Below, piece after piece: positions 10,504 to 32,024 of a DNA stretch of 32,024 nucleotides. This DNA is from Desulfobacteraceae bacterium. GTDB lineage: Bacteria > Desulfobacterota > Desulfobacteria > Desulfobacterales > JALSRD01. The stretch's first letter is position 1. Every line of letters begins with the position of its first letter. The translations under genes were made by a program, and so were the position numbers. The notes under the pieces are model-generated. The model was not told the origin of the DNA, ran no database searches, and saw only the letters and a program-made list of their open reading frames with translations. Where the stretch lies: contig JAMOVG010000275.1 of the NCBI GenBank assembly GCA_027061725.1, forward strand, positions 1 through 32,024, given 5' to 3'.

Positions 10504-10507
10504 GTTC

Positions 10508-11389: not shown

Positions 11390-11443
11390 AGGGGCCGCCC
11401 GTTTTCGACTACCGTTCGGTTTATGCGGATTAGGATCTGATTC

Positions 11444-12307: not shown

Positions 12308-12353
12308 CGAGCCGGTTGCGAGTGATGGCGAGCCGGCAGGAGGAGAAGGCAGC

Positions 12354-13559: not shown

Positions 13560-13585
13560 CGTCACCACCCTGAGGAGGAACGGAT

Positions 13586-15132: not shown

Positions 15133-15147
15133 CCACTGCCTGCAGCC

Positions 15148-16089: not shown

Positions 16090-16107
16090 GTGCCGCCGGA
16101 ACCCGTT

Positions 16108-17076: not shown

Positions 17077-17135
17077 GCGTGTTGATTCCCGCTGGCGACA
17101 TCATCACGGCGCAGACCGGCCCATTGCTGCGGCCG

Positions 17136-20100
17136 ATGACTCCAGGTCTTCACGACGGGCGGGCCTCCCGGGGAAAAGCGCTGGCATTCGTTTTTCTGCT
17201 GGTGCTGCTGTCGTTGCTGCTCCCGTCCGGCGCCCCGGCCACGGTGCCTCCCCCCCGGAACCCCAATTCCGCCAAGTCCTGCGCTATCTGCCACTACCGC
17301 TGGATCGACACCTTTTTTACCGAGGGTCGCGGGACCGAGCTGGTGGCCTACCATGCCGAGAAAGTCGCGGCTACGCCAGAGATGTGCATGTCCTGTCACG
17401 ACGGCAGCGTCGTGGATTCCCGCAAACGAATGGGCAGCGGCGCAGGGCACAAGACCAACGTGTCCCCGCCGGCCGGCATGAAGATACCGGATATTTTTCC
17501 GCTGGACGAAAACGGCCGGGTGCAATGCGCCACCTGCCACACGGCCCACGGGGTGCCCAGCGGGCCGGATTCCCACGAGACCATCTTCATGCGGACCTCC
17601 AACCGGGATTCGAACATGTGCCGCATGTGCCATGCGGACAAGACCGGCGGCCCGTCGGCCGGCAACCACTCCATGGGTAGCGTCGAAAAGGGCTTTCCCC
17701 GGCAGCTTGCCGCCGGTTACGGCAAGCCCGGTGTACAGAAAAACCAGGTGATCTGCGAGAGCTGCCACACGGCCCACGGGTCTTCTCAAAAAAGCTTTCT
17801 GGTGAACCCCACGGGTCGCTCCCAGCTGTGTCTGGCCTGTCACCGCGACAAGCGCAGCTTTACGGCCGACGGACGCAAAACCCCTGCGCATATAGTGAAC
17901 GTGGTCCCCGTCAAGGCCAGGATCCCGGCGGCGGTGATTGAACGCGGGGCCCGGCTGGGGGACGCGGGTGCGCTGATCTGCCAGACCTGCCACAAGGTCC
18001 ACGACAACGATATTGAAAAGCCGTTGCTGGTGATCGCCAGGGACCGCAAGTCCGGTTTCTGCCTCACCTGTCACCCCGACAAGCAGTCCATTGCCGACAC
18101 CCGGCACAACCTGGCGCACTCGGCACCGGACGAAAAAAACCTGGCGGGCCAGACCGTGGCCCAGGCCGGTGTGTGCTCGGCATGTCATCTGCCCCACAAA
18201 GCCGCCCGCAAGCTGGCCGGGAAAAAAAAGGACTACACCAGTCGGCTGTGCCTCAGTTGCCACGCCAAGGGACGGGTGGCCGGAAAGGTCAACCTGAGCG
18301 GCGAAACCCACCCCCTGGACGTTGATCCTTTTAAAAAAGGAGGGACGCCCGGCAGGCCCACGGCGGTGGACACCACCCGCAATGAGCTGAAGCTTCCGCT
18401 TTTCGACCGCTCGGGAGTGCAGGACAAGAATGGCAAAATGACCTGCGCCACCTGCCACGACACCCACCGCCCGGCAACCGCCCCGGCCGAGAAAACCGGC
18501 CCCGGGGGGGCCATGCGGTCGACGTTTTTTCTCAGGAAACCCCAACCCGGGATCTGCCGGCAGTGCCACCGGAGCAAATTCAACATCGCAGGCTCGCGGC
18601 ACGATCTGGCCAAAAGCGCCCCAAACGCCCGCAACATCCTCAACCAGCAACCGGCCCAGGCGGGGCTATGCGGCAGCTGCCACCTGGTGCACGGATCCCG
18701 CAGGGGGTTTCTGTGGGCACGGCGTACGGGGGGCGGGGGCGGTGTCGTGCAGAGCCTGTGTTTTTCCTGCCACAACGAAAAGGGCATTGCCCGCAAAAAG
18801 GTTCACCACGGCTATTCCCACCCCATGAACATCCGGCCGGCCGGCACGGGGATTAAGGTTCGCGGCCTGCCCCTGTTCGACAAGAAGGGCAAATTCCGGC
18901 CCAACGGGCGCATCACCTGTCCCACCTGCCATGACCCCCACCAGTGGCGGCCGCCCGCCGAACGTACCCAAAGCGGTCGGCGGGCCGGCAAGAGCCACGT
19001 GGCCTTTACCTCCTTCCTGCGCCGACAGTCGCCGGATATCTGTCGGGCCTGCCATGCCGACAAGTTCTTCATCAAAGGGTCCAAACACGACCTGGGCTGC
19101 GTGGCCCCCGGCTCCCGCAACATCGCCGGACAGACACCGGCGGAGTCGGGGGTGTGCGCCGCCTGCCACCTGGTGCACAACGCCCAGAGAGATTTTCTAT
19201 GGGCCCGCAGGATCGAACCCGGTCGCGCCACGGCCGGGGAAGCGCTGTGCGTTGGCTGCCATCGGCCGCAGGGCCTGGCCTCCGACAAGGTTATCGGCGG
19301 CCGATCCCACCCCCTGAATGTTTCTCCCGCCGGCAGGGGATTGGACACCACACTGCCCCTTTACGGTGAACACGGCGGTCCGATTCAAAACGGGGTCGTG
19401 TCCTGTCCCACCTGCCACGACCCCCATCGCTGGACCCCCCGCCGGCGGGCGGGAAAAAACCTCCTGAAAACCGAAGGCGATGCGCGCAACAGTTTCCTGC
19501 GGCTGGAAAACGCCCCGGTCCCACTGCTGTGCACCAATTGCCACCGGCGGCAGGCCGTGGTGCAAAAGACCGACCACGACCTGCTGGCCGCGGGCGCAAC
19601 GGCCACCAACGATGCCGGCCAGACACCGGTGCAGTCCGGCACCTGTGGGGTGTGCCATCTGGTCCACAACGGCCGACAGCCGGTCCGTCTCTGGGCCCGG
19701 GAGCTGACCGGGCAAGGGCCCGTAATGGACCGTCTGTGCAACTCCTGCCACACGAAGGGCGGTCCGGCCGGGAAAAAGATCCCCGCCATCGCCTCCCACC
19801 CGTCAACCGCCATCGTCGACGTGGGCAAAGGCTTGCGCGCCCAGGCCGGGCACCTGCCGCTCTTCGACGGGGCTTCCGGAAAACCGGTGCGCGTCGGGAA
19901 CCTTTCGTGCCCCTCCTGCCACAATGCGCACCGGTGGAAACAGGGGGCACCCGCGGCCGCTGCGGGACAAGAGGTCGAGGGCGACGCCACCAACAGTTTT
20001 CTCAGAAGCCGGGCCCGCGACACCCTTTGCAAGGACTGCCACGGCCCGGACGCCCTCTTTCGCTACAAGTTTTTTCACAAACCCGGTGCGCGCCTGGCCC

Positions 20101-20159
20101 GGCAGAACCGCCCGAGGGAGCCTTCTTTCAGGACATTCCGGCCCGCCCGCAAACCGTAG
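17136..20159 (+). CDS. Giant 24-haem c-type cytochrome of repeated tetrahaem modules
   Basis: 1,007 aa from ATG 17136, which gives a normal signal peptide (basic region then ALAFVFLLVLL). TTG 17073 or GTG 17079, overlapping the previous stop, are alternatives. I count 24 CXXCH motifs and none with odd spacing. They fall into six groups of four. The last four groups are clear repeats of about 163 residues with the order: AQAG(x)C..CHLVH, C..CH, SHP, LPLFD, CPTCHDPHxW, FLR, IC..CH and HDLA. There is no TM helix or lipobox after the signal peptide, and the tail is basic. A string of regularly spaced haems suits a long molecular wire bridging periplasm and outer membrane or lying outside the cell; location is not decided by the sequence. 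It ends operon A. Confidence 0.88.
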   Translation: MTPGLHDGRASRGKALAFVFLLVLLSLLLPSGAPATVPPPRNPNSAKSCAICHYRWIDTFFTEGRGTELVAYHAEKVAATPEMCMSCHDGSVVDSRKRMGSGAGHKTNVSPPAGMKIPDIFPLDENGRVQCATCHTAHGVPSGPDSHETIFMRTSNRDSNMCRMCHADKTGGPSAGNHSMGSVEKGFPRQLAAGYGKPGVQKNQVICESCHTAHGSSQKSFLVNPTGRSQLCLACHRDKRSFTADGRKTPAHIVNVVPVKARIPAAVIERGARLGDAGALICQTCHKVHDNDIEKPLLVIARDRKSGFCLTCHPDKQSIADTRHNLAHSAPDEKNLAGQTVAQAGVCSACHLPHKAARKLAGKKKDYTSRLCLSCHAKGRVAGKVNLSGETHPLDVDPFKKGGTPGRPTAVDTTRNELKLPLFDRSGVQDKNGKMTCATCHDTHRPATAPAEKTGPGGAMRSTFFLRKPQPGICRQCHRSKFNIAGSRHDLAKSAPNARNILNQQPAQAGLCGSCHLVHGSRRGFLWARRTGGGGGVVQSLCFSCHNEKGIARKKVHHGYSHPMNIRPAGTGIKVRGLPLFDKKGKFRPNGRITCPTCHDPHQWRPPAERTQSGRRAGKSHVAFTSFLRRQSPDICRACHADKFFIKGSKHDLGCVAPGSRNIAGQTPAESGVCAACHLVHNAQRDFLWARRIEPGRATAGEALCVGCHRPQGLASDKVIGGRSHPLNVSPAGRGLDTTLPLYGEHGGPIQNGVVSCPTCHDPHRWTPRRRAGKNLLKTEGDARNSFLRLENAPVPLLCTNCHRRQAVVQKTDHDLLAAGATATNDAGQTPVQSGTCGVCHLVHNGRQPVRLWARELTGQGPVMDRLCNSCHTKGGPAGKKIPAIASHPSTAIVDVGKGLRAQAGHLPLFDGASGKPVRVGNLSCPSCHNAHRWKQGAPAAAAGQEVEGDATNSFLRSRARDTLCKDCHGPDALFRYKFFHKPGARLARQNRPREPSFRTFRPARKP
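18174..20159 (+). repeat. Four tandem coding repeats (~163 codons each) in the 24-haem cytochrome
   Basis: The first cysteine codon of the motif C..CHL(V/P)H recurs at 18174, 18669, 19155 and 19644, spacings of 495, 486 and 489 nt. Each unit carries four haem motifs in constant order. The two units upstream (17278-18173) are more diverged. Growth by unequal crossover of a tetrahaem unit is the simplest reading. Confidence 0.75.
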
Positions 20160-20490: not shown

Positions 20491-20597
20491 TCGAGGCGAT
20501 ATCCAGCGCCAAAGCCAAACCCCGGGCGACCGGGGGACGGAAAGCCACGGGTCTTCCGACGTGACTGCGTTCACAGAAGACAGCCGGGTTGCCGCGA
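20491..20597 (+). promoter_or_regulatory. GEMM-I cyclic dinucleotide riboswitch aptamer
   Basis: Elements of the GEMM-I aptamer appear in order. P1 is 20491-20499 paired with 20589-20597 (eight pairs including one G-U, with one A/G mismatch). The junction AAAGCCAAACC follows. P2 is CCCCGG-GCGA-CCGGGG (20520-20535) with a GNRA tetraloop. Next is the conserved GGACGGAAAGCC. P3 is closed by GTCTTC (20551-20556) and GAAGAC (20576-20581), with the receptor-like CCACGGG and CAGCCGGGTTGCC. By alignment to the Vc2 aptamer, the ligand-contacting position 20 is G (20514), which favours c-di-GMP; the 3',3'-cGAMP class (GEMM-Ib) usually has A there. Some G20 variants are promiscuous, so specificity is provisional. 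It controls the small cytochrome operon. Confidence 0.85.
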
Positions 20598-20623
20598 AAA
20601 CAGGAGGGCGACCCGGCTTTTTT
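20582..20623 (+). terminator. Riboswitch-controlled intrinsic terminator
   Basis: AGCCGGGTTGCC (20582-20593) pairs with GGGCGACCCGGCT (20606-20618), a 12-bp stem with one G-U, followed by six T (20618-20623). Its left arm is also the 3' strand of the aptamer. Ligand binding should hold that strand in the aptamer and prevent the terminator, so the switch is predicted to be ON with ligand. The next gene starts 145 nt downstream. Confidence 0.85.
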
Positions 20624-20768: not shown

Positions 20769-21386
20769 ATGAAAAAGGTATCCATTGTACTGATGATCCT
20801 GGCCCTGACGGCCCTGTTGTCCGGCGTCTCCATGGCGGAGATCACCGGCAGCGACCACGATTTCAGCGGCAGTGGCTGGTCCGGCGGAGAAATCTGCAAG
20901 CCCTGCCATACGCCGCACCATGCGGACACCACGGTGGCCGGCGCCCCTCTGTGGAACCACGAGGTGACCACATCCACGTTTACCCTCTACAGCAGTTTGA
21001 CCCTGGATGCCACTGACCTGGGACAGCCCGACGGCGTGTCCAAGCTGTGTCTTTCCTGCCACGACGGTACGGTGGCTATTGATTCCTTCGGCGGTGCCAC
21101 GGGTTCCACGATGATCTCCGGCGACGCGCTTATCGGCACGGACCTGTCGGACGACCACCCGATCTCGTTCACCTACGACGATGCACTGGCAACCACCGAC
21201 GGCGGACTGCACCCGCCCTCAACGGCGACGACTTCCCTGGGCGGCACCATCCAGGATGACCTCCTTTTCGGCAACAAGGTGGAGTGCTCGTCCTGCCACG
21301 ACGTGCACAATTCGCACAACAACGAAAAGCTTTTGAATATCGCCAATGCTTCTTCGGCGCTGTGCCTGACCTGTCACAACAAGTAA
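20769..21386 (+). CDS. Small exported tetrahaem cytochrome c, possible filament subunit
   Basis: 205 aa with a signal peptide (cleaved near residue 23, SMA) and four CXXCH: CKPCH, CLSCH, CSSCH, CLTCH. AAGGAG lies eight bases before the ATG. Haem-poor, Gly/Ser/Thr/Asp-rich stretches separate the motifs, and the DLSDDHP segment carries a free histidine. Size, haem number and layout (C..CHTPHHAD, then CLSCHDGTVAIDSFGG) recall the OmcE-type tetrahaem cytochromes that polymerise into extracellular nanowires in Geobacter; I recall this from memory and cannot align it here. First gene after the riboswitch, so it should be the product most tightly tied to second-messenger level. A paralogue follows at 21465. 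Confidence 0.85.
   Translation: MKKVSIVLMILALTALLSGVSMAEITGSDHDFSGSGWSGGEICKPCHTPHHADTTVAGAPLWNHEVTTSTFTLYSSLTLDATDLGQPDGVSKLCLSCHDGTVAIDSFGGATGSTMISGDALIGTDLSDDHPISFTYDDALATTDGGLHPPSTATTSLGGTIQDDLLFGNKVECSSCHDVHNSHNNEKLLNIANASSALCLTCHNK
20874..20930 (+). repeat. Near-identical 57-bp coding block shared by the two small cytochrome genes (copy 1)
   Basis: Positions 20874-20930 and 21633-21689 match at 55 of 57 bases. Both cover the codons from GWSGGEICKPCH to HHAD. The identity extends to synonymous sites, which indicates recent duplication or gene conversion. Confidence 0.7.
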
Positions 21387-21411
21387 AACGCACAATCCAG
21401 TCGTTCACCAG

Positions 21412-21433
21412 AAGGGGGCCCAGCCCCCTTTTT
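21412..21433 (+). terminator. Intrinsic terminator/attenuator between the two small cytochrome genes
   Basis: AAGGGGGC (21412-21419), loop CCA, GCCCCCTT (21423-21430), then T to 21433. A perfect 8-bp stem with a three-base loop and U tail. It lies 25 nt after the first gene's stop and 31 nt before the next start. It should release much of the transcript after the first cytochrome, raising its dose over the downstream secretion genes. Confidence 0.8.
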
Positions 21434-21464
21434 CGTGGACAGTCGCCGCAGTAAGGAGGACGAT

Positions 21465-22139
21465 ATGGCTGCGATAAAAACAGACGCTTCCAGCCGGCGC
21501 ATGCGGGTCGGCGGCCTGCCGTCGATCGTGCCCGGGTGGGCGCTGATCCTGATGATCGCCTGCTGGTTGATCGTAACGGCACCCCCTGTCCAGGCGCAGA
21601 TTGCAGGCAGCCCCCACGATTTTTCCAGCCAGGGCTGGTCCGGCGGAGAAATCTGCAAGCCCTGCCATACCCCGCACCATGCCGACACCGCGGTGGCCGC
21701 AGCGCCCCTGTGGAACCACGAGGTGACCACGGCCACCTACACCCTTTACAGCAGTCCCACCATGGACGTGAACGTGGAGCAGCCCGGAGAAATCTCCAAG
21801 CTGTGCCTGTCCTGTCACGACGGCACGGTGGCCATGGACTCTTTCGGCGGCAGCACCGGCAGCATGTTCATGACGGGCCCAGCCGTGGTCGGCGAGGGGC
21901 TGGATCTGTCCGACGATCACCCCGTGGGCATTTACTGGAACCACCAGACCGTGTCCGGGTGCGGAACCTGCCACTACACGCACGGCGATCCCTACTCGTA
22001 CAGGGTGCGCTTCTACGAGCGCCGGGTGGAGTGTGCATCCTGCCACGATCCCCACAACAACGGTGCCGAGGAGAGCGGGATGCTGCGGGTCAGTATGGCC
22101 GGCTCTGAGCTCTGCCTGGAGTGCCATACCGATAAATAG
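21465..22139 (+). CDS. Small exported pentahaem cytochrome c, paralogue of the preceding gene
   Basis: 224 aa from ATG 21465, preceded by AAGGAGG; the frame is open upstream, but the Shine-Dalgarno decides the start. A long N-region leads to a signal peptide ending PVQA. Five CXXCH: CKPCH, CLSCH, CGTCH, CASCH, CLECH. The N-terminal half is almost the same as in the previous protein (GWSGGEICKPCHTPHHAD, APLWNHEVTT, CLSCHDGTVAMDSFGG). The extra CGTCH replaces the Gly/Ser-rich loop before the third motif. Downstream of a terminator, it is probably made in smaller amounts, which would suit a cap, initiator or linker for the tetrahaem protein (inference). Confidence 0.85.
   Translation: MAAIKTDASSRRMRVGGLPSIVPGWALILMIACWLIVTAPPVQAQIAGSPHDFSSQGWSGGEICKPCHTPHHADTAVAAAPLWNHEVTTATYTLYSSPTMDVNVEQPGEISKLCLSCHDGTVAMDSFGGSTGSMFMTGPAVVGEGLDLSDDHPVGIYWNHQTVSGCGTCHYTHGDPYSYRVRFYERRVECASCHDPHNNGAEESGMLRVSMAGSELCLECHTDK
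21633..21689 (+). repeat. Near-identical 57-bp coding block (copy 2)
   Basis: The second copy of the block at 20874-20930, differing at only two positions. It spans the first haem motif of the pentahaem protein. Confidence 0.7.
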
Positions 22140-22179
22140 GGGATGGCGTGTTGCGGAACGACAATCGGAAAGGGCCTCT

Positions 22180-23304
22180 ATGAAAAAATGCGCTATTCTG
22201 CTCCTGTGTCTGCTGCTCCTGTCCGGCTGTGCCAGCGCCCCTTCTGAGAAGAGAAAAACCGTCCTGTTTTACCCGCCCCTGCCCCAATCGCCGCGGCTGC
22301 AGTTTCTCACCACCATTACCGGCGAGGCGGATCTGGGCCGCGAACAGAGCGCTTTGGAGACGTTTCTTCTGGGGCCCCCCGAATCCCTGAAAACCATCGG
22401 CAAGGCCTATGACATCGCTGCGGTCAAGGGCCGCATCTACGTACTGGACCGAACCGCCCGCAAACTGCTCATTCTGAACCTGGCGGAGCGTCGTTTCGAC
22501 TACCTCAGGGACGAGCGCCTGGGGACCCTCAGCGACCCTTCGGGCATCTGGGTGTCGGACGATGACGTCAAGTACATCGCCGACATGCAGCGCAAACAGG
22601 TGGTGGTCTTCGGCCGCGACAACCGTTTCGTGCGGGCATACGGGGGCAAAGATCTCTTCGACAAGCCGGTGGACGTGGCGGTCTTCGGGGACACCGTCTA
22701 CGTGTGCGACATGAACAAGCACCAGGTGCTGGCCCTGGACCGCGGGAGCGGGCGGCTCAAGCGGACCATCGGTGAACTGGGCAGCGGCAAGGGCCAGTTT
22801 TACCGGCCCTCCCATGTGACCGTGGACCGCGACGGCAACCTTTTCGTCAACGATGCCTTTAATTTTCGCATCCAGAAGTTCGACCCGCAGGGCACGCTGG
22901 TGCGCACTTTCGGCCGGATAGGGGACAACCTGGGGGCCTTCGCCCGACCCAAGGGCATTGCCGTGGATCGCCAGGGTTACCTTTACGTGGTGGACGCCGC
23001 CTTTGAAAACGTCCAGATTTTCGACAGCCGCTCCGGGCAGTTGATGCTCTTTTTCGGAGGTGCCGGAACTACCCCCGGGAGCATGTACCTGCCCGCCGGC
23101 ATCCACATCGATTACGACAACGTGGATTTTTTCCGGCGCTTTGCCGACAAGGACTTCCGGCTGGAATACGTCCTCTACGTGGGGAATTATTTCGGACCCA
23201 ACAGGCTGAACGTTTACGGGTTCGGAAAATGGGTGGGTCAGCCGCTGCCCGCCACCCCAAACGCCGCAGGTGAGCCGCAACGTGAAGCCCCCAAGGCGGA
23301 ATAG
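22180..23304 (+). CDS. NHL-repeat beta-propeller lipoprotein 1
   Basis: 374 aa from ATG 22180 (GGAAAGGG upstream). Lipoprotein signal with lipobox LLSGC, so Cys17 is the likely lipidated residue. A Pro-rich linker (PPLPQSP) is followed by about six NHL blades with repeated motifs such as KGIAVDRQGYLYVVDAAFENVQIF, and a Pro/Glu-rich tail. The order of features matches the lipoprotein at 26108 (PPLP, R(L/I)(Q/R)F, a hydrophobic helix, then blades). Ser at +2 is compatible with outer-membrane sorting. In the Geobacter osc cluster a beta-propeller protein (OscD) is reported to maintain OmcS nanowire morphology. A similar role here, holding the small cytochromes at the surface, is inference. Confidence 0.87.
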   Translation: MKKCAILLLCLLLLSGCASAPSEKRKTVLFYPPLPQSPRLQFLTTITGEADLGREQSALETFLLGPPESLKTIGKAYDIAAVKGRIYVLDRTARKLLILNLAERRFDYLRDERLGTLSDPSGIWVSDDDVKYIADMQRKQVVVFGRDNRFVRAYGGKDLFDKPVDVAVFGDTVYVCDMNKHQVLALDRGSGRLKRTIGELGSGKGQFYRPSHVTVDRDGNLFVNDAFNFRIQKFDPQGTLVRTFGRIGDNLGAFARPKGIAVDRQGYLYVVDAAFENVQIFDSRSGQLMLFFGGAGTTPGSMYLPAGIHIDYDNVDFFRRFADKDFRLEYVLYVGNYFGPNRLNVYGFGKWVGQPLPATPNAAGEPQREAPKAE

Positions 23305-24106
23305 GATTCTGCCCGTGCTGGCGGCCGTGTCGGTCGTACTCATCTGCGGGTGCGATCGCCAAGCCCGGCACCGGTGGCTGACGTTTTTTTTCACCGGCGT
23401 GCCGCCCCTGGAAGCGTCCAGGGCCAGCGGGACGGACGGGAAAAAAGAGGACTCCAACCGGCCGGGAACACAGCCCGCGGGAGGGGCGGTCCCTGCAGTG
23501 GTGTTATACGCCCATCCCCTGTACGCGGCCCGGAGGTGCGAGGCCTGTCACGCCACATCGGCCGCTCTCGGCCCCCAGGCCTCCAGCGGCAGGGGCTCTT
23601 CCCGCATCTTGGGCGGCACTTCGGCCGCCTCGCCGGCCAGGCTGCGAATGCCCGTCCGAAAATTGTGCGCCGGTTGCCATGAGGACAAATCCGAGGCCGC
23701 GGCCTCCGCCAGGGGATTGTGGCTGCACACCCCGGCGGCCAAGGGCAAGTGCCTGGCCTGCCACGCTCCCCATCAGAGCCGATATCCCCATGTCCTGACC
23801 AAACCGCCGGAGCGGCAGTGTGCCGTGTGCCACATGAAAGACGTTGTGGCCAACCCCGCTTCCCATAAGGCGGTCAAGCGAATGTCGAACAATTGCCTGC
23901 AGTGCCACAACCCCCATGCGGGACGCGACAGGAAAATGCTGACGGCCGATTACCGGGAGGCGCTTCGGCCCGTGGGGACTACACCGGCTGCCGTTCGGCA
24001 GGGGCTTCGCCGGCAGAGCGGCAGCCAGGGCAAGGATGTCTGTTATCCGCTGGAATCCCCAGGCGATCCGTCTGACAAAGGGTGGGGGAACATGGTTGAA
24101 GATTGA
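23282..24106 (+). CDS. Pentahaem cytochrome c, probable outer-membrane lipoprotein
   Basis: 274 aa from GTG 23282, chosen for AGGTGA eight bases before it; GTG 23270 is the alternative. It overlaps the preceding gene by 23 nt. The N-terminal hydrophobic stretch ends VVLICGC, an imperfect lipobox (Cys at -2). A Ser/Gly/Pro-rich linker follows, then five CXXCH in doubled pairs: CEACH, CAGCH, CLACH, CAVCH, CLQCH, several followed by PH. The C-terminal about 45 residues have no haem. Its position directly before the beta-barrel gene, with a TGATG overlap, suggests it is the cytochrome partner of that barrel, like OmaB/MtrA-type conduit subunits in function though not evidently in sequence. If lipidated it may face either side of the outer membrane. 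Confidence 0.8.
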   Translation: MKPPRRNRILPVLAAVSVVLICGCDRQARHRWLTFFFTGVPPLEASRASGTDGKKEDSNRPGTQPAGGAVPAVVLYAHPLYAARRCEACHATSAALGPQASSGRGSSRILGGTSAASPARLRMPVRKLCAGCHEDKSEAAASARGLWLHTPAAKGKCLACHAPHQSRYPHVLTKPPERQCAVCHMKDVVANPASHKAVKRMSNNCLQCHNPHAGRDRKMLTADYREALRPVGTTPAAVRQGLRRQSGSQGKDVCYPLESPGDPSDKGWGNMVED

Positions 24107-26073
24107 TGGCTTGCAAGAGGAAATGCGTGAAAGATCCCGGCCTCCTGTTGATGTGCGCCCTGATTTTCGCCCTCATGACACCGGAGCATGCCTGGGCGGC
24201 CCGGTTTTTCATGGAGCGGCCCAAGCTGGGGCTGGGCATTTCCTACGAATTCTGGTCCGAAACGATCACGGGGCCGGATATCCGAACCGACAACACCTCC
24301 CAGGAGCTGCGCCCGGTGCTCGATATCCGCACCAGGGGGTGGGTCTATCACCCGGCTTTCATGCAGTACAAGCTCGGCTTCCAGCCCGCCTTGAGCTGGC
24401 ACGACGAAAGCTATAACCAGACCACCGGTTCCGACCTGAATCCCTTTCTGCCGGCTTATTTTGCGGATTTCACCTTTCTGCCCGTAAAGCCTTACACCCT
24501 GCACCTCTACGGCAAGCGATACGACGACATCGTCACCAGCGCCTTTGCCGCCCAGACTGAAACCACCACCGAGAGCTACGGCGGCGACCTGTACCTGAAA
24601 TACCGGGTGCTGCCCACCACCTTCAGCTACAGCCGCACGCGCATCGACCAGACGGGTTTTTTCGATTCCGTCGAGGATCGCGACGATTTCCGCATCACCA
24701 CGCGCCACCATAAGGGCCGCAGTGACACGCAGGCCTATACGATTTACAGCGACTCCGACCGCGTCAGCAACAGCATTCCCACGCGGGTGAAAACGTCCAA
24801 CTCCGAGATTCGCAACTTCTTCGATTTCACCGGCAAAAGGCAGGTCATGCTCAACTCTTTTCTGACCTACCGCTGGTCGCAGCAGAACGGCCTGGACACG
24901 TCCGGCTTGAGGTGGCTGGAGCAGCTCAACTGGCGGCACAGGAAGAATTTCTGGTCCAACTACCGGTTGGGCTACAACCAGCAGAGCTCCGGCGACTTCG
25001 ACCGCCGCACGCTTTTTGCCAATGCCGGCCTGGAGCATCTGCTTTATGAGAATCTGACCACCCGGCTCAACGGGGGGGCCGAGCTGAGCGATTTTACCGG
25101 GGGCGGTGAGGATGTTTACGACGCCAACCTCGATTTCCGGTACCGGCGCCCGATTCCCTGGGGCTGGTTCAACCTGCACGCGGGCTGGACCAACACCGCC
25201 ACCTTCCGCAGCGGCGGCGGCCAGGTTCCCGTCCAGGTCGTGGACGAGCCGCACGTGCTGTCCACCGGCGTTGTCACCTTCCTGGACCACAACAACGTGG
25301 CGACCGACTCCATCGTGGTCACCAACGTGGCCGGGTCGGTGGTGTATGTCGAGAATGTCGACTACACCATCACCCGCGTGGATTATTCCGTGCAGATCAG
25401 CCGCACCATCGTCGGCGACATCACCGACGGCCAGACGGTGCTGGTCAGCTACCGCTACCTCAGTGATTCCGACTTCAATGACAATATTTTCGGCCAGACT
25501 TACGGCATCGATTTTATGCTGTGGTCCTCCCTGCGCCTTTATTACAGCTACAGCCGGGCCAGCCAGCAGATTCTGTCGGGCACGGTTCTCACGGCCAACC
25601 GGGTGAACGACTCGCGCCACCGGGCCGAAGTGCGCTACGATCTGGGGTGGACCGACACCCAGCTGACATTCGACGACACCAGTCGCGAATCCGGAGCTTC
25701 CACCCGCGCCTGGCGGGCCAAGCAGACTTTTGTGGTCCGGCCGTTTCGGCGCATGTACTGCAGGCTGTCGGGATATTACGGTCAGACGGCTTTCGACGAC
25801 CGTGACGATACCCAGCAGCTTTACGGTATGCGGACCGACCTGACCCTGGCGCTGACGCGCTGGAGCCGCCTGCGCATGGAGGCCTACCGGGACACCATCA
25901 CGGGCGCCGGCCAGGACACCGTCAACACGGTATTTACCGCTTCAGTGGACCTTTCCTACCGCATCTGGCGGGGTACCATCTTTTATCAGTACACGGATGT
26001 GGACAACCAGTTCGTCGAGCAGCGGCGCACGACCCACAACCTGTTTGTGGAGATCATACGGTTGCGCTGGTGA
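24106..26073 (+). CDS. Outer-membrane beta-barrel, likely porin of a porin-cytochrome conduit
   Basis: 655 aa from ATG 24106, which overlaps the previous stop by one base (TGATG). The signal peptide ends near HAWA. The mature protein is made of alternating hydrophobic/polar strands rich in Tyr, Trp, Arg and Asp, without haem motifs, and ends LRW with an aromatic C-terminus typical of BAM substrates. I estimate about 20 or more strands but cannot count them exactly. A low-aromatic segment near residues 370-450 (PVQVVDEPHVLSTGVVTFLD and onward) reads as an inserted beta-sandwich. It probably sheaths a haem chain through the outer membrane or acts as the exit channel for the small cytochromes, comparable to OmbB/MtrB or the channel-like OscEFG. 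Which of the two cannot be decided here. Confidence 0.83.
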   Translation: MACKRKCVKDPGLLLMCALIFALMTPEHAWAARFFMERPKLGLGISYEFWSETITGPDIRTDNTSQELRPVLDIRTRGWVYHPAFMQYKLGFQPALSWHDESYNQTTGSDLNPFLPAYFADFTFLPVKPYTLHLYGKRYDDIVTSAFAAQTETTTESYGGDLYLKYRVLPTTFSYSRTRIDQTGFFDSVEDRDDFRITTRHHKGRSDTQAYTIYSDSDRVSNSIPTRVKTSNSEIRNFFDFTGKRQVMLNSFLTYRWSQQNGLDTSGLRWLEQLNWRHRKNFWSNYRLGYNQQSSGDFDRRTLFANAGLEHLLYENLTTRLNGGAELSDFTGGGEDVYDANLDFRYRRPIPWGWFNLHAGWTNTATFRSGGGQVPVQVVDEPHVLSTGVVTFLDHNNVATDSIVVTNVAGSVVYVENVDYTITRVDYSVQISRTIVGDITDGQTVLVSYRYLSDSDFNDNIFGQTYGIDFMLWSSLRLYYSYSRASQQILSGTVLTANRVNDSRHRAEVRYDLGWTDTQLTFDDTSRESGASTRAWRAKQTFVVRPFRRMYCRLSGYYGQTAFDDRDDTQQLYGMRTDLTLALTRWSRLRMEAYRDTITGAGQDTVNTVFTASVDLSYRIWRGTIFYQYTDVDNQFVEQRRTTHNLFVEIIRLRW

Positions 26074-26107
26074 GTTACCGTCATGAAAAAAAGAGGTATG
26101 GCATCCA

Positions 26108-27148
26108 ATGAGAGCCGCAAAATGCATTAACCTGGCCTTGTTGGCGGTGATGCTGCTGACGGCCGGCTGCATCGGGGGCGGGGATGCGGTGCGGCCCCCG
26201 CTGCCGGAAATCGCCTGGCCGCCGCCGCCGGAGACGGCCCGCATTCGCTTTGTCAACGCCGTGACCCGGCCCCGGGATCTCGATATCGCTGAGGGGGCCC
26301 TGCGGAAATTCGTCCGTTACTTTCTCGGGGAATCCGAAAAACGTCTTGTGGCGCCTTACGGTGTGGCCGCCGATGCGGCGGGAAGGCTTTACGTGGTGGA
26401 CACTTATCTGAAAACGGTGCACGTGTTCGACAGCCAGGCCGGCGAACATTACACCTTTGTCCCCCCCAAACGGGCTTTCCAATCACCGGTGGGCATCGCC
26501 GTCGACGGCCGGCGCGGTTTCATCTATGTGACCGACTCCCAGCAGGGCGTGGTCAAGATTTTCACCCGCAGGGGCAGGGCGTATGTCGGGGAGATCGGTG
26601 AAGGGTTTCTGGAAAGGCCCACGGGCATTGCGGTCAGCCAGGCCGCCTCTGAACTTCTGGTGGTGGACACACTGAGCGCCAACGTCGTGCGGTACGCCCT
26701 GGGCGACCACCGTCTCAAAGGGGGCTTCGGCGGCACGGGTTCCGGGAAGGGCCGCTTCCGCTATCCCACCAATATCTGGGTAACCCCCGAAGGCCGTATA
26801 ATCGTCAGCGACTCGCTCAATTTCCGGGTACAGATTTTTTCCCCCAGTGGAAGCTATCTCAACAGCTTCGGAAGCCTGGGCAACGCGCCGGGCTACTTTT
26901 CGCGGCCCAAGGGGGTCGCCGCGGACAGCGACGGCAATATTTACGTGGTCGATGCCCTGTTCGACAACATTCAGGTTTTCGACCGAAATGGCCGATTGCT
27001 CATGGCATGGGGCGGCCCCGGGCACGGCTATGGGCGTTTTTGGCTGCCCAGCGGGATATTCATCGACAGCCGCGACCGCATCTATGTGGCGGACACCTAC
27101 AACAGGCGGGTGCAAGTATTTCAGTATCTCAAGGGAGAATCGAGATGA
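26108..27148 (+). CDS. NHL-repeat beta-propeller lipoprotein 2
   Basis: 346 aa. Lipobox LLTAGC (lipidated Cys21), a Gly- and Pro-rich linker, a short conserved region, then about six NHL blades (for example KGVAADSDGNIYVVDALFDNIQVFD). It is a close paralogue of 22180-23304: a nearly identical blade near the C-terminus (RPKG(I/V)A, YVVDA, NIQ/NVQ) and the shared SGKGxFxxP turn. It lies 34 nt after the barrel gene and shares a 4-nt ATGA overlap with the dodecahaem gene, so all four products are probably made together. Probably an outer-membrane scaffold. Two lipidated propellers flanking one barrel suggest a layered complex (inference). Confidence 0.87.
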   Translation: MRAAKCINLALLAVMLLTAGCIGGGDAVRPPLPEIAWPPPPETARIRFVNAVTRPRDLDIAEGALRKFVRYFLGESEKRLVAPYGVAADAAGRLYVVDTYLKTVHVFDSQAGEHYTFVPPKRAFQSPVGIAVDGRRGFIYVTDSQQGVVKIFTRRGRAYVGEIGEGFLERPTGIAVSQAASELLVVDTLSANVVRYALGDHRLKGGFGGTGSGKGRFRYPTNIWVTPEGRIIVSDSLNFRVQIFSPSGSYLNSFGSLGNAPGYFSRPKGVAADSDGNIYVVDALFDNIQVFDRNGRLLMAWGGPGHGYGRFWLPSGIFIDSRDRIYVADTYNRRVQVFQYLKGESR

Positions 27149-28875
27149 AGAACGCATTCAAGCCGCTGTTGCCGCTGTTGCTGGTGGTGTGCCTGGGCGC
27201 ACCACCGGTGTACGGGGGCAGTATTTTCACCACCCGGCACAACCTTTCGACCAGCGGCCCGGGTGAAATAAAAGCCTCCGGAGAGGACCGGGTCTGTATT
27301 TTCTGCCACACGCCCCACAGGGCGGTCAAGCGGATCCCCTACCTGTGGAATCGCAGCGATTCAACCGCGCGCTACACGCCTTATCAGAGTTCGACGCTTT
27401 TTGCCGCGGTGGGGCAGCCCACGGGCGCATCCAAGATGTGCCTGAGCTGCCACGACGGAACCATCGCCCTCGGGGCGGTGGTCTCCGAACCGCGGGAAAT
27501 TGCCTTCATCGGCGGAATCCGGTTCCTGCCGGCCGACCGTCCCAGTTACCTGGGCACCGACCTTACCAACGACCACCCCGTATCGTTCGTGTACGACACC
27601 AGCCTGGCACAGCGCAGGGGAGAGCTGGCAGACCCGGGGCAGCTGCCCTCGCAAATAAGGCTGGACGCCGGCCAGCAACTCCAATGCACGGCCTGCCACG
27701 ACCCACACGATGACACGTACGGCAAATTTCTGGTCATGTCCAACAAGTACTCGGACCTTTGTACTTCCTGCCACGAGCGCATCGGCTGGGCCGCCAGCAG
27801 CCACGCCACCTCCAGTGCCGGATGGAACGGCCAGGGGCCGGACCCCTGGCCGAACACCGACTACGCCACAGTGGCCGAGAACGGCTGCCAGAACTGCCAC
27901 AGGTCCCACGGGGGAGACAGTCCCCAGTGGCTTTTGAAACACCGGTTCGAGGAGGACAACTGCCTGGTATGCCACAACGGAAACGTCTCTTCGCGCAATA
28001 TCGAGGCGGAACTTCTCAAGGCCTATGTCCATCCGGTGCAGGAAAGTGTCGGGGTGCACGACCCGACCGAAGACTATCAGCTGGGAAGCGTGCCCAAACA
28101 CGTGGAGTGCACCGACTGCCACAACGCACACCGTATCGGGGACGATGCTTCCACCGGTGCACCGGCGGTGTCCGGGGCCAACCGGGGTGTCTCCGGCATC
28201 GATATCGCCGGGCAGCAGGTGGCGCAGTCACAGAATCTGTACCAGATCTGCTTCAAGTGCCATGCCGACAACAACGTGGTTACTTCCTTTGACATCACCC
28301 GGCAGATCGACCAGCTCAACACCCGCCTGGAGTTCGACCCGGGCAATCCCTCCTTTCACCCGGTGGCCGCCCCCGGCGTGAATCCGGATGTGCCCAGCCT
28401 GATATCCCCGCTGACCACCAACAGCATGATCTACTGCACCGACTGCCACAACAGCGACGACCCGGCAGGGCCGCAGGGACCGCACGGATCGAATTTCAAA
28501 CCCCTGCTCTCGGACAACTACGACACCACCGATTACGCCAATGAAAGCGCGTTCAACTACGCCCTGTGCTACAAGTGCCACAGCCGCGACAGCATCTTGG
28601 GCGACGAGAGCTTTTCGGAACACCGTCGGCACATCGTCAAGGAGAGGGCGCCCTGCTCCGCCTGCCATGATGCCCACGGCATCAGCCAGACCCAGGGCAA
28701 TGCCACCAACAACAGCCACCTCATCAACTTCGATCTGACCATCGTTTCCAGGGGGCCGATGGGCCGACTGGAATTTGTCGACACCGGCAGGTTCAGCGGG
28801 CAGTGTTTCCTGTCCTGCCACCGCAAAGGCCACGGCGGCAACAGTACTTACCCGCGCGGCGGGGGAGGCATGTAA
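27145..28875 (+). CDS. Exported dodecahaem-type cytochrome c
   Basis: 576 aa from ATG 27145 (AAGGGA upstream, overlap of 4 nt with the previous gene). The signal peptide ends near VYG. Eleven CXXCH (CIFCH, CLSCH, CTACH, CTSCH, CQNCH, CLVCH, CTDCH, CFKCH, CTDCH, CYKCH, CSACH) plus a final CX3CH (CFLSCH). The first third resembles the small cytochromes at 20769 and 21465: CHTPH, PYLWNRS, YxxYxSS, SKMCLSCHDGTIAL, TNDHPVSF, CHDPHDD. It therefore looks like an enlarged member of the same family, and could be a base, cap or surface terminal reductase for a filament. The C-terminus is Gly-rich, with no lipobox or TM helix. Confidence 0.87.
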   Translation: MKNAFKPLLPLLLVVCLGAPPVYGGSIFTTRHNLSTSGPGEIKASGEDRVCIFCHTPHRAVKRIPYLWNRSDSTARYTPYQSSTLFAAVGQPTGASKMCLSCHDGTIALGAVVSEPREIAFIGGIRFLPADRPSYLGTDLTNDHPVSFVYDTSLAQRRGELADPGQLPSQIRLDAGQQLQCTACHDPHDDTYGKFLVMSNKYSDLCTSCHERIGWAASSHATSSAGWNGQGPDPWPNTDYATVAENGCQNCHRSHGGDSPQWLLKHRFEEDNCLVCHNGNVSSRNIEAELLKAYVHPVQESVGVHDPTEDYQLGSVPKHVECTDCHNAHRIGDDASTGAPAVSGANRGVSGIDIAGQQVAQSQNLYQICFKCHADNNVVTSFDITRQIDQLNTRLEFDPGNPSFHPVAAPGVNPDVPSLISPLTTNSMIYCTDCHNSDDPAGPQGPHGSNFKPLLSDNYDTTDYANESAFNYALCYKCHSRDSILGDESFSEHRRHIVKERAPCSACHDAHGISQTQGNATNNSHLINFDLTIVSRGPMGRLEFVDTGRFSGQCFLSCHRKGHGGNSTYPRGGGGM

Positions 28876-28936
28876 GGGCGGCATTCAGCAGGATGCGGGA
28901 GGCCGGACAAATCACGAGAACACTTCGGGGGGAAAC

Positions 28937-29029
28937 ATGAAAAAGCGCAGGAAACACTCGTTTGCCCCAGGCGCAGCCCACGCTGTTTTCGGGCGAAGCG
29001 GTGCCAGGGGCAGGTGCACACCATGTTGA
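28937..29029 (+). CDS. Possible 30-residue leader peptide or gene remnant
   Basis: ATG AAA AAG start with a G-rich Shine-Dalgarno (GGGGGG) just upstream, and a stop overlapping the start of the next gene. The product is basic, unrelated to anything I recognise, and ends CTPC. It may only serve to couple translation to the HAMP gene, or be the decayed start of a lost gene. The rest of 28876-29022 contains nothing else I can identify. Confidence 0.25.
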   Translation: MKKRRKHSFAPGAAHAVFGRSGARGRCTPC

Positions 29030-29589
29030 AGGGGGGGATGGCCACCGCCGGATTCAGGCGACTGCTGCCGGTTCTGCTGGCGATGTACGTTTTTTTCAGC
29101 CTGGGCACTGCGGCGGTTCTCTACTTCCGGCTTCGGGTTCCACTGAGTCCCCACTACGGGGCGGCCGTAACCATCATCACCCGCGTCAGAGATGCGCTGG
29201 CCCGGGATGTCATACTCATAGATCTGGTCTTTTTCGTGGCGGCGGCGGCAGGGGTGCTGGTGTTGGGGGTTCTGTACTCCCATCGCGTGGCCGGCCCCCT
29301 TTTCAAGGTCAAACGGCATGCCGCGGAGATGGCCGAGGGCCGCTTCGACGCGCGCATCCGGTTCCGCAGGAAAGACGCCGTACACGACCTGGCCGACGCC
29401 TTGAACCGGGTGGCCGCCTCCTGCGCGGAAAGAAGCGGCCGCCTGGATGCCGGCCTGCGGGCCCTGGAGGAAAACCTCCAGATGCTGGAGCAGGTGCCGG
29501 AACACTCGCCGGACAGATCCCGGATCATGAAGCAGATCGGATTGCTGGATGCCGAAATTCGTGCGACATGTCCACGGGTGAAACGATGA
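29023..29589 (+). CDS. Small membrane protein with HAMP domain and no output domain (1)
   Basis: 188 aa from ATG 29023; GTG 29014 is also possible. Two TM helices (about 14-36 and 63-85) enclose a short periplasmic loop. A HAMP domain (about 86-140, SHRVAGPLFKVKRHAAEMAEGRFDARI) and a short coiled coil follow, then the protein ends. There is no kinase, cyclase or methyl-accepting module. HAMP domains transmit periplasmic conformational change, so it needs a partner protein. A paralogue of the same design is at 30374, and the pair brackets a heptahaem cytochrome gene. Possible roles: a redox-responsive adaptor or an assembly factor. No target is evident. Confidence 0.75.
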   Translation: MLKGGMATAGFRRLLPVLLAMYVFFSLGTAAVLYFRLRVPLSPHYGAAVTIITRVRDALARDVILIDLVFFVAAAAGVLVLGVLYSHRVAGPLFKVKRHAAEMAEGRFDARIRFRRKDAVHDLADALNRVAASCAERSGRLDAGLRALEENLQMLEQVPEHSPDRSRIMKQIGLLDAEIRATCPRVKR

Positions 29590-30359
29590 AGCACGCCTGG
29601 ATGGTTCTGCTGCTGGTATCGCTGGCGTTCGCCTTGGCGGCCTCCGATCCCATAAAAGCCGTGCACGATTTTTCCGCCGATCAGTGCCGCCGCTGCCACC
29701 GGGATGCCAAAAACAGGCCCGGAGATCTCAAACCCGTGCCGAGTTCCCTGTGCACCGACTGCCACGCCGAGGCCGGGCGGGACCTGTCGCACCCCGTCGA
29801 TGTGGTTCCGGAAAAAAAGATTCCGGGGGACATGCCGCTGGTGGGGGGACGGGTGGTCTGCATCACCTGTCACGTCGTGCACCCCGTCACGATCCGGAAC
29901 CGGTACCTGAACGATTTTCTCCTGCGTCGGCCCGGCAGGGGTGCGGCATTTTGCGCATCCTGCCACGGGATCGATGAAAAAGGGCATATCGTATTTGAAC
30001 GCATTCACAGCGGATCGTACAAGGTCACCGATCGTGGTACATCACTGGATTCCTATACCCTGCAGTGCATCGAATGTCATGACAGCCGCATCAACGACCC
30101 GGCCGACACACTGGGGGCCGGCAGGTGGCGGCATGGCGGCGCATCCCACCTGAATCACCCGGTGGGGATCTCGCTGGACAGGGTCGCCGGGCAAAACCCC
30201 CGGCAGTACAGAAGAGCCGCAACTCTGCCGCCGGAAATCCGGCTGTTTGACGGAAAAATCGGCTGCGGCACCTGTCACAACGCCTATTCCAGGGAGAAGA
30301 ACCTGCTGGTGATGCGCAACACCAGGAGCCGGCTGTGCCTGGCGTGCCACATCAAATAA
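29586..30359 (+). CDS. Exported heptahaem c-type cytochrome
   Basis: 257 aa from ATG 29586, which overlaps the previous stop by 4 nt; ATG 29568 is a weaker alternative. Signal peptide (MKHAWMVLLLVSLAFALA) and seven CXXCH: CRRCH, CTDCH, CITCH, CASCH, CIECH, CGTCH, CLACH. Several histidines lie between them (SHP, HVVHP, SHLNHPVG) to act as distal ligands. The block DMPLVGGRVVCITCH followed by FCASCH resembles FPLAQGKLSCLTCH followed by FCFKCH in the protein at 8503, so the first cytochrome of operon A and the last of operon B belong to one family. No anchor is visible, so it is probably periplasmic, passing electrons to the conduit. Confidence 0.85.
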   Translation: MKHAWMVLLLVSLAFALAASDPIKAVHDFSADQCRRCHRDAKNRPGDLKPVPSSLCTDCHAEAGRDLSHPVDVVPEKKIPGDMPLVGGRVVCITCHVVHPVTIRNRYLNDFLLRRPGRGAAFCASCHGIDEKGHIVFERIHSGSYKVTDRGTSLDSYTLQCIECHDSRINDPADTLGAGRWRHGGASHLNHPVGISLDRVAGQNPRQYRRAATLPPEIRLFDGKIGCGTCHNAYSREKNLLVMRNTRSRLCLACHIK

Positions 30360-30373
30360 CGGAGGTGAGGAGA

Positions 30374-30964
30374 GTGAAATCCAGAAGGCGTCGCTATGTC
30401 GTCGATATCGGTTTCCAGGGCCGCTTCGTGCTGGGCTTCGTGCTGGCCACGCTGGTCGGCAGCATAGCGGCCGCCGCCCTCTTCTATTTCCCGGCGCAGA
30501 GCAGGCTCGAGCAGCTGCAGTGGAGCGTGTTTCTCAGGGGCCGTACCATCGTCGAGGCGGTACAGCCGCTTTTCCTCCGGGTCAGCCTGGCCTCCGTCAT
30601 TTTCGTCGGGCTCCTGCTGCTGCTGACCTGGGTGCGCATGATGAACCGCATAAACGGGCCCCTTGCCGGTATGATCCGACCGCTCGAACGAATGGCGGCC
30701 GGGGACTTTCGTGTCGGCATCACCCTCCGGCGCAGGGATGAATTCGGCGAGACGGCACGGGTGCTCAACGAGATGATGAGCAGGATCGCGGGCCGTTGCC
30801 GGGAATTCGAAGACAGCTACGAGGAAATTCCCCGTGCGCTTGGAGATCTGGAGGCCTATGCTGAGGGGCCGATTTGTGACCGGGCGGCCCGGGCCCGGCG
30901 GCTGGTGCGGCGGTTGCGCGATACACTCGAGCCAGCTGTGGCGGTATCCGCTGAACAGCGTTAG
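30374..30964 (+). CDS. Small membrane protein with HAMP domain and no output domain (2)
   Basis: 196 aa from GTG 30374; GGAGGTGA ends five bases before it and decides the start. A basic N-terminus (KSRRRR) is followed by TM1 (about 19-38), a periplasmic loop, TM2 (about 68-88), a HAMP domain (about 90-145: NRINGPLAGMIRPLERMAAGDFRVGI) and a coiled-coil tail. It shares the GPL...MAxGxFxxxIxxRRxDxxxxxAxxLN pattern with 29023-29589. Two such proteins could form a heterodimer. It is the last gene of operon B. Function unknown. Confidence 0.75.
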   Translation: MKSRRRRYVVDIGFQGRFVLGFVLATLVGSIAAAALFYFPAQSRLEQLQWSVFLRGRTIVEAVQPLFLRVSLASVIFVGLLLLLTWVRMMNRINGPLAGMIRPLERMAAGDFRVGITLRRRDEFGETARVLNEMMSRIAGRCREFEDSYEEIPRALGDLEAYAEGPICDRAARARRLVRRLRDTLEPAVAVSAEQR

Positions 30965-31041
30965 ACCGATTTGGCATTTTTTCAAGGCGGTGAGCCTTCC
31001 GGGAAACGCAACGCGTCGGCACCCGAAAGGCAAAGGGTCGG

Positions 31042-32024
31042 CTAGTACACGACGATTTGGGCCGTCTTTTTCAGCCGTGCCACCAGTGCGGCACGCAGCT
31101 GCTTTTCTTTTTTCCGGGACAGCTCTTTCCTGAGCCTGTCGGAAACCTCGCGCAGGCTCAGTTGGGTCGGCGGCTCGACGGCCTCCACGCGTATGATGTG
31201 GTAACCATAAATCGTCTCGATGATGTCGCTGAGCTTGCCGGGTTCCAGTGCGAACACCGTTTTCTCCAGCTCGGGGTCCAGGCGGCCCCGGTGCACCAGG
31301 CCCATATCACCACCCTTGACACGGTAGGGGCCATCCGAATAATCCCAGGCCACGGCAGAGATGTCTTCTCCGGAGCGGATCTTTTCAATGGCCTCCTGGG
31401 CCCTCTGTTTCCTTTTCCGGCGCTCCTGGGAACCGGCCTCGGGCTTGACGGAAATCAGGATGTGGGTGATGCGGCGGGCCTCTGGCCGCATGAACTTGCT
31501 TCTGTTGGCCTCGTAGTAGGCGCGGATTTCTTCATCGGTGGGGACCGCCCTTTGCGTGATGTCCTCGGCGATCAGACGCTTTACCAGAAATTTTTTTCTC
31601 AGCTTTTCCCGGTACTGTCGGTCGCTGAGACCGGCCCGTTTCAGGGCGGCCCTGAATTTACTATCCCCGCCCAGCCGCCGGATGGTGCGTTGGCGCTGCG
31701 CGGCGATCATTTCTTCATCGACGGTCAGCCCTTTTTTGACGGCCTCCTGGTAAAAGAGCTCTTTTTCGATCATCTTTTCAAGGGCCTGAGGCCGGTACTT
31801 GTTCCTTTTTGCAGAAGAAAAACCGCCGTGGAAAACGCCGGCCGGCATGATTTCGTTGAGGGCCGCCTGCAGGTCCGCTTCCGTCAAAACGGTTCCGTTC
31901 ACCTTGGCCACTGGCCGCGTGGGTGTTTGCGCCGCAGACGGTAAGGCGATCCCCATGGCGAGCATCAGCGCCAAGAAGGGGCACCACAGGCGTCTTTTTT
32001 GTATTTTGGCTTTGGTTGAAATAG
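31042..32024 (-). CDS. SurA/PrsA-like periplasmic prolyl isomerase (parvulin type), 5' end outside window
   Basis: The frame is open from the right edge to TAG at 31044-31042. TTG 31974 is the only recognised start codon I see in frame, but it would give a signal peptide without a basic region. Upstream codons read KIQKRRLWCPFLALMLAMGI, so the true start is probably beyond 32024. A SurA_N-like helical chaperone region spans about 35-165 (counted from TTG 31974) and a PPIC rotamase domain about 165-270 (ITHILISVKPEA, GGDMGLVHRGRLDPELE, YGYHIIRVEA), with a basic C-terminal helix. Such proteins fold exported and outer-membrane proteins. In the Geobacter osc cluster a prolyl-isomerase chaperone (OscH) is reported to be needed for OmcS nanowires, which suggests this one folds the small cytochromes or the barrel. 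It converges on operon B. Confidence 0.85.
   Translation of the reverse strand, partial: ISTKAKIQKRRLWCPFLALMLAMGIALPSAAQTPTRPVAKVNGTVLTEADLQAALNEIMPAGVFHGGFSSAKRNKYRPQALEKMIEKELFYQEAVKKGLTVDEEMIAAQRQRTIRRLGGDSKFRAALKRAGLSDRQYREKLRKKFLVKRLIAEDITQRAVPTDEEIRAYYEANRSKFMRPEARRITHILISVKPEAGSQERRKRKQRAQEAIEKIRSGEDISAVAWDYSDGPYRVKGGDMGLVHRGRLDPELEKTVFALEPGKLSDIIETIYGYHIIRVEAVEPPTQLSLREVSDRLRKELSRKKEKQLRAALVARLKKTAQIVVY

Follow-up and report, generated by a model that had tools for sequence, protein, structure and literature searches.

We analysed a 32,024-nucleotide stretch of DNA from a Desulfobacteraceae bacterium (henceforth referred to as the window), which is the entire contig JAMOVG010000275.1 (C275) of assembly GCA_027061725.1 (4.07 Mb, 98% complete), and found that it carries a real and conserved operon, probably a complete one, for a predicted cytochrome nanowire of the OmcE type. 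The genes at 20769-30964 lie on the same strand with short gaps or overlaps, consistent with a single operon, and five of them, namely a filament subunit, two NHL beta-propeller lipoproteins, a large outer-membrane barrel and a 12-haem cytochrome, form a core cassette that is probably a standard kit for making and connecting bacterial electrical wire. The model that we favour, with moderate confidence, is that the operon makes an OmcE-type filament together with its outer-membrane base, that is, a conduit and an anchor. The initial annotation of this DNA had described the small cytochromes, propellers, barrel, 12-haem protein, HAMP proteins and prolyl isomerase as a nanowire-like assembly locus, and all of these parts were found where it had placed them; absent from it were the riboswitch at 20505-20597, the 7-haem cytochrome at 29586-30359 and the upstream continuation of the locus at 9448-20159. 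The leader and the genes up to the 12-haem cytochrome are as follows.

20505-20597, plus strand: riboswitch aptamer of the cyclic di-GMP-I (c-di-GMP-I) type (Rfam RF03167, c-di-GMP-I-GGC; cmscan)
20582-20623, plus strand: intrinsic terminator with a 12-bp stem and U6; 5' arm at 20582-20593
20769-21386, plus strand: OmcE-type tetrahaem cytochrome of 205 amino acids, the probable filament subunit (four CXXCH motifs; match to 7tfs)
21465-22139, plus strand: OmcE-type cytochrome paralogue with a fifth haem motif (53% identical to the tetrahaem protein; ligand pattern identical)
22180-23304, plus strand: NHL beta-propeller lipoprotein 1, core (Pfam NHL, 1e-14; lipobox LSGC)
23270-24106, plus strand: pentahaem probable lipoprotein (Paired_CXXCH, 3e-21; lipobox ICGC)
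24106-26073, plus strand: large outer-membrane beta-barrel with an inserted beta domain at about residues 373-450 (AlphaFold2 model; MtrB match)
26108-27148, plus strand: NHL beta-propeller lipoprotein 2, core (Pfam NHL, 5e-30; lipobox TAGC)
27145-28875, plus strand: 12-haem cytochrome, the proposed filament anchor (11 CXXCH and one C-terminal CX3CH; the OmcE module is the first ~210 amino acids)

Among solved structures, the tetrahaem protein is related only to the OmcE filament (7TFS; E-value 4e-25, residues 9-205) and to 9YUQ (E-value 7e-25), a 16-chain entry described as a putative multihaem cytochrome, the source of which was not found (best match 49%). Consistent with this, the AlphaFold2 model of the protein (predicted local distance difference test score, pLDDT, 80.8) had 7TFS as its sole fold match in the PDB (E-value 7e-8, template modelling (TM) score 0.53). 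In an alignment of 20 proteins that includes 7tfs and 9yuq, the four CXXCH motifs and the histidines H30, H50, H130 and H180 are invariant, and in a wider alignment of 55 proteins H30, H130 and H180 remain invariant and H50 is kept in more than 90%. Four CXXCH motifs and four distal histidines are the exact count for four bis-histidine haems. In OmcE and OmcS a haem is coordinated by a histidine of the neighbouring subunit (PMC9473688), and the N-terminal position of H30 suggests that it is the histidine that reaches the neighbour’s haem. The alignment also places the OmcE ligand pattern in the pentahaem paralogue. The small cytochrome had been called OmcE-like from the sequence alone, and sequence, haem-ligand pattern and fold all bear this out: the tetrahaem protein is a true OmcE relative and, judging from its homology, a probable filament subunit. 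The window has no hexahaem OmcS subunit: its small cytochromes hold four and five haems, and the tetrahaem protein matches OmcE-type structures only.

The cassette was recovered by searches in both directions. When the barrel was searched across the phylum of the window (395 genomes), it was present in 26 genomes, and most of the neighbourhoods fetched carry the same gene set. When the small cytochrome alone was searched against 84,980 species genomes, at least 577 relatives were obtained, of which the best 80 loci were examined; many of their contigs are cut, leaving 35 untruncated loci. The most frequent partner is propeller 1, present at 72 of the 80 loci, followed by the barrel (66), the 12-haem gene (56) and propeller 2 (53); all five core genes are together at 28 of the 35 untruncated loci. 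The order is likewise kept: across the 80 loci there are 70 instances of propeller 1 immediately after an OmcE gene and 48 of propeller 2 immediately ahead of the 12-haem gene. Complete sets were found in at least eight phyla (Pseudomonadota, Bacteroidota, Calditrichota, Thermodesulfobacteriota, Chlorobiota, Ignavibacteriota, Verrucomicrobiota and KSB1, named from the record titles; most records are metagenome bins). The initial annotation had tied its reading to the presence of these genes together in related genomes, and the set recurs across phyla. Chance co-location was rejected, since loci selected by the barrel hold an OmcE gene, loci selected by OmcE hold the barrel, and the gene order recurs in many phyla.

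Closer to the window, a genome of another family in the same order (G028) retains about 20 kb in nearly identical order. In gene trees, the window’s 12-haem protein and propeller 1 cluster with those of Desulfobacterota, and the closest relative of the 12-haem protein comes from a Desulfobacteraceae bacterium; the subunit tree was poorly resolved and we therefore make no claim of subunit exchange. The sister species of the window’s genome (G001), the only congener searched, has neither the barrel nor an OmcE gene, and the operon is thus variable within the genus. The full core cassette is also present in two named Bacteroidota strains, Aestuariivivens marinum MT3-5-12 and Carboxylicivirga marina N1Y132 (loci L122 and L131), which offer a convenient experimental system.

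Of the partner proteins, the 12-haem cytochrome carries the most specific mechanistic hint. The initial annotation had treated it only as a relative of the small cytochromes. Its N-terminal third (the first ~200 residues) gives a profile match to 7tfs with an E-value of 1e-47, and the rest gives weak, partial matches only; the protein thus consists of an OmcE module with a further eight haems fused to it. The N-terminal histidine of the OmcE module is kept, and across phyla the protein is 45-57% identical to that of the window, which makes it the best conserved among the partner proteins compared. The pentahaem lipoprotein is replaced by a 9-haem version in some Bacteroidota, and in beta- and gammaproteobacterial cassettes no such gene separates propeller from barrel. 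Since the proteobacterial cassettes lack it at this place, the 12-haem protein is the sole cytochrome besides the subunit that is common to the cassettes and hence the likeliest link between barrel and filament, which it may anchor to the barrel. A bolder possibility, which we advance only tentatively, is that OmcE-type nanowires universally have the 12-haem protein as their base, its OmcE module being fused to an eight-haem wire that is seated in an MtrB-like barrel and presents a filament-compatible end, and that the five-gene kit wires cells in at least eight phyla; if true, this would show how cytochrome filaments join the cell envelope.

The AlphaFold2 model of the barrel is of high confidence (pLDDT 89.6) and has about 28 long strands plus the inserted beta domain. 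MtrB (6r2q_B) aligns to it with a Z-score of 20.2 over 454 residues (model residues 29-652; root-mean-square deviation (rmsd) 7.1 Å) and is the sole full-length match in the structural list, the other listed barrels aligning over ~335-391 residues only. The protein is thus predicted, from the fold alone, to form a large MtrB-type pore. Its homologues are 13-37% identical, so the barrel is much less conserved than the 12-haem protein, and no match was found in viral contigs, as expected. The inserted beta domain (residues 373-450) is weakly like immunoglobulin-like phage tail tube domains (NF052337, 9e-6; phrog_807, 4e-4).

A riboswitch aptamer lies ahead of the operon, some 170 nt from the first cytochrome gene (68.6 bits against a gathering threshold of 59, E-value 2e-14). 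The terminator that follows has a predicted folding energy of -30.5 kcal/mol (z -4.55). Because its 5' arm (20582-20593) is also needed as the aptamer's 3' strand, a bound ligand would be expected to suppress termination, which implies a ligand-ON switch. The aligned position that we take to be G20 of GEMM-I is a G, favouring c-di-GMP over cyclic GMP-AMP, and the ligand is probably c-di-GMP. A c-di-GMP-I aptamer with the same terminator overlap lies upstream of an OmcE gene in a genome of another family (G408; locus L035, 16242-16319, minus strand). The riboswitch as a general feature of the cassette was not supported, as an Rfam scan of 14 other loci found one at L035 alone; a strict riboswitch pattern had no match outside the window, the pattern being insensitive since it missed L035. 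In Geobacter, GEMM-I switches control omcST and pgcA, and the ligand has been suggested to stabilise an anti-terminator, giving an ON switch (PMC6456294).

The locus extends upstream of the leader with cytochrome b/multihaem modules, a third propeller and a 24-haem cytochrome, and continues downstream of the 12-haem gene with HAMP genes and the isomerase gene.

9448-16089, plus strand: two sets of 6-haem cytochrome, cytochrome b and 3-haem cytochrome, plus one 5-haem cytochrome (matches to the formate dehydrogenase gamma model)
16090-17076, plus strand: third NHL propeller, secreted, lipobox not found (sequence features)
17073-20159, plus strand: 24-haem cytochrome (24 CXXCH)
29023-29589, plus strand: membrane HAMP protein 1 (Pfam HAMP, 6.5e-7)
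29586-30359, plus strand: 7-haem cytochrome between both HAMP genes (7 CXXCH)
30374-30964, plus strand: membrane HAMP-like protein 2 (similar genes at L038, L039 and L041)
31042-31974, minus strand: SurA/PpiC-type prolyl isomerase (Rotamase, 5e-23; SurA_N_3, 8e-15)

Against the formate dehydrogenase gamma model, the two cytochrome b genes give E-values of 4e-14 and 1e-19, both below the model cut-off, and the 9448-16089 genes probably encode quinol-oxidising or quinone-reducing inner-membrane modules. The order of 9448-17076 is kept in G028 (L007) and partly at L104, L121, L094 and L115. Homologues of the 24-haem gene occur with the upstream block at L007, L104 and L121, and the third propeller is paired with the 24-haem gene at these three loci and at L035; the 24-haem cytochrome is a probable link from the inner-membrane modules. 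Other Desulfobacterota likewise have HAMP and 7-haem genes paired next to either the barrel or the 12-haem gene, and this set might serve to sense redox state or to gate electrons at the membrane. A 7-haem cytochrome and short HAMP proteins without an output domain adjoin the cassette at L038, L039, L041, L042, L043 and L051.

The initial annotation had inferred an equivalent of the Osc system of Geobacter sulfurreducens for an OmcE-type subunit, with the isomerase among its parts. The central idea and the subunit assignment stand, and the barrel and two propellers correspond in kind to OscE-G and OscD; the isomerase as a core part was rejected, since it was found at none of the 35 untruncated OmcE loci, and in the window its gene lies on the opposite strand, convergent with the operon genes. 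It was not seen 3' of the 12-haem gene in G028 or at L104 either, and lies within the cassette at L053 and L054. We regard it as accessory at most, with some support for a link to the system: by far its best match in the Geobacter family (37%, E-value 5e-61) stands beside propeller 2 and a split 12-haem homologue. In this second locus of the Geobacter relatives, the isomerase is joined by a probable glycosyltransferase, by a propeller that ranks first or nearly first among the matches of the window’s propeller 2, and by the 12-haem protein split into 4- and 7-haem genes, and at L199, L200, L201 and L202 the isomerase, propeller and split 12-haem genes lie between clpX/lon-like and type II secretion-like genes. 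Around the OmcE gene of G. sulfurreducens relatives lie genes for a propeller lipoprotein, for a barrel-like protein of ~750 residues and for cytochromes with 8 and 10 haems, as well as genes probably concerned with cytochrome c biogenesis. Geobacter relatives thus share the ingredients, differently packaged. A search for the OmcS operon in the Geobacter-family genomes examined did not locate it; the pairs of isomerase and propeller that turned up belong to the split 12-haem locus and to an OmcZ-like locus. At L204 (14933-19003) and L206 (9489-13580), a 6-7-CXXCH cytochrome, presumably OmcZ-like, adjoins a probable protease and a prolyl isomerase; isomerases recur next to filament cytochromes.

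The analysis shows homology, ligand conservation, predicted folds, synteny and the overlap of riboswitch and terminator; polymerisation, localisation, the anchoring role, the direction of electron flow, and the ligand and ON logic of the leader are our inferences. In the conduit-and-anchor model, the tetrahaem protein (and the pentahaem paralogue) would be exported and then polymerise, each subunit lending its N-terminal histidine to a haem of the adjoining one, as OmcE subunits do. The barrel would form an MtrB-like pore around a haem wire, the 12-haem protein would couple the first subunit of the filament to this wire, inside or beneath the pore, and the two lipidated propellers on the outer membrane would guide or hold the filament, with the pentahaem lipoprotein as an extra haem link in some lineages. 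The upstream cytochrome b modules and the 24-haem protein would exchange electrons with the quinone pool, and a cyclic dinucleotide, probably c-di-GMP, would bind the leader to allow read-through past the terminator. Several points weigh against this model. Homology to a filament former is no proof of polymerisation; the barrel profile matches nothing in the Geobacter-family genomes searched (a search with no positive control), though Geobacter makes OmcE filaments; and a profile comparison of the window barrel with the Geobacter barrel-like gene gave an hhalign probability of only 61. The 12-haem homologue of the Geobacter family is split and sited away from the OmcE locus, the rmsd of the barrel model to MtrB is large, and its Foldseek matches have low TM-scores and consist for the most part of TonB-dependent receptors, LptD and the FimD usher. 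The physiological role of the Geobacter cytochrome filaments is itself disputed (PMC13194489).

An alternative, in line with the initial annotation, is a secretion and assembly machine like the Osc proteins for OmcS, in which the barrel exports the cytochrome, the propellers shape the filament, the isomerase folds the cytochrome and the 12-haem protein is a cap or nucleator. We consider this unlikely. In its favour are the published roles of the Osc proteins (OscH, OscE-G and OscD; summary in PMC13194489), the isomerase that stands beside a propeller and the split 12-haem genes near type II secretion-like genes in Geobacter relatives, the isomerase inside the cassette at L053 and L054, and the FimD usher among the barrel’s matches; however, the barrel is a single gene whose sole full-length match is a conduit sheath and not a secretion channel, the untruncated OmcE loci are devoid of the isomerase, and a 12-haem wire, often with a 5- to 9-haem lipoprotein, suits a conduit. 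Given its Foldseek matches and its large rmsd to MtrB, the barrel may be a conduit or a secretion channel; on balance, the evidence somewhat favours a conduit with an anchor over a machine for secretion only. A second alternative is an ordinary porin-cytochrome conduit whose tetrahaem proteins act as soluble or surface-bound shuttles without polymerising. This would account for the MtrB-like barrel, the multihaem lipoprotein and the inner-membrane quinone modules, but seems quite improbable given that all OmcE haem-ligand positions are kept, the N-terminal histidine included, that the tetrahaem fold matches OmcE only and that an OmcE module is also fused into the 12-haem protein.

The conduit-and-anchor model relates the operon to several known systems. 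The Mtr/Pcc conduits resemble it in fold, with a large barrel (MtrB matching full-length) and multihaem partners, whereas the decahaem MtrA was not identified in the window, where the partners are the 12-haem protein with its OmcE module and two NHL lipoproteins; candidates for a cytochrome threaded through the barrel are the 12-haem and 5-haem proteins. The osc operon (OscC, OscD, OscE-G and OscH; Shen et al. 2025, as described in PMC13194489) shares the kinds of part, namely a filament cytochrome, a paralogue, a propeller, a channel-like protein and a prolyl isomerase, and GEMM-I control has been reported for omcST (PMC6456294) as the window operon has a c-di-GMP-I-type riboswitch; it differs in its hexahaem OmcS as against the tetrahaem OmcE-type subunit and in that the window’s isomerase is not core, the other parts being likened by description. 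The Oet/DIET clusters of syntrophic sulfate reducers (PMC10553843; PMC12246660, citing Skennerton 2017) are described with a porin, large multihaem and extracellular cytochromes, a prolyl isomerase and a propeller, as in the window, whereas the filament candidates reported there are OmcX, OmcS-like and Apc2a, with 26- and 16-haem cytochromes, and the OetI barrel is likened by description. In Geoalkalibacter ferrihydriticus, the locus Ga0056053_02426-02431, reported as a list of genes, resembles the window in that an OmcE homologue is accompanied by two NHL proteins, a quinol-linked cytochrome and a homologue of MtoA; neither a barrel nor a 12-haem OmcE fusion is among the genes described in that list (PMC12016550). 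The OmcE locus of Geobacter relatives has, like the window, a propeller lipoprotein and a large barrel-like gene beside OmcE, but differs in its 8- and 10-haem cytochromes and cytochrome c biogenesis genes, in a barrel-like protein that is not detectably of the window barrel’s family and in a split 12-haem protein that lies elsewhere with the isomerase. The mechanism in Geobacter has been described as not well understood (PMC10553843); for the question of how filaments of cytochromes are fixed to the cell and pass electrons to or from it, the cassette names specific junction candidates. Overall, the window’s subunit is homologous to the OmcE nanowire of G. sulfurreducens (7TFS) over its full length with an identical haem-ligand pattern, its junction candidates stay together in at least eight phyla, and the cassette, with its regulatory handle, makes the question of anchoring testable beyond Geobacter.

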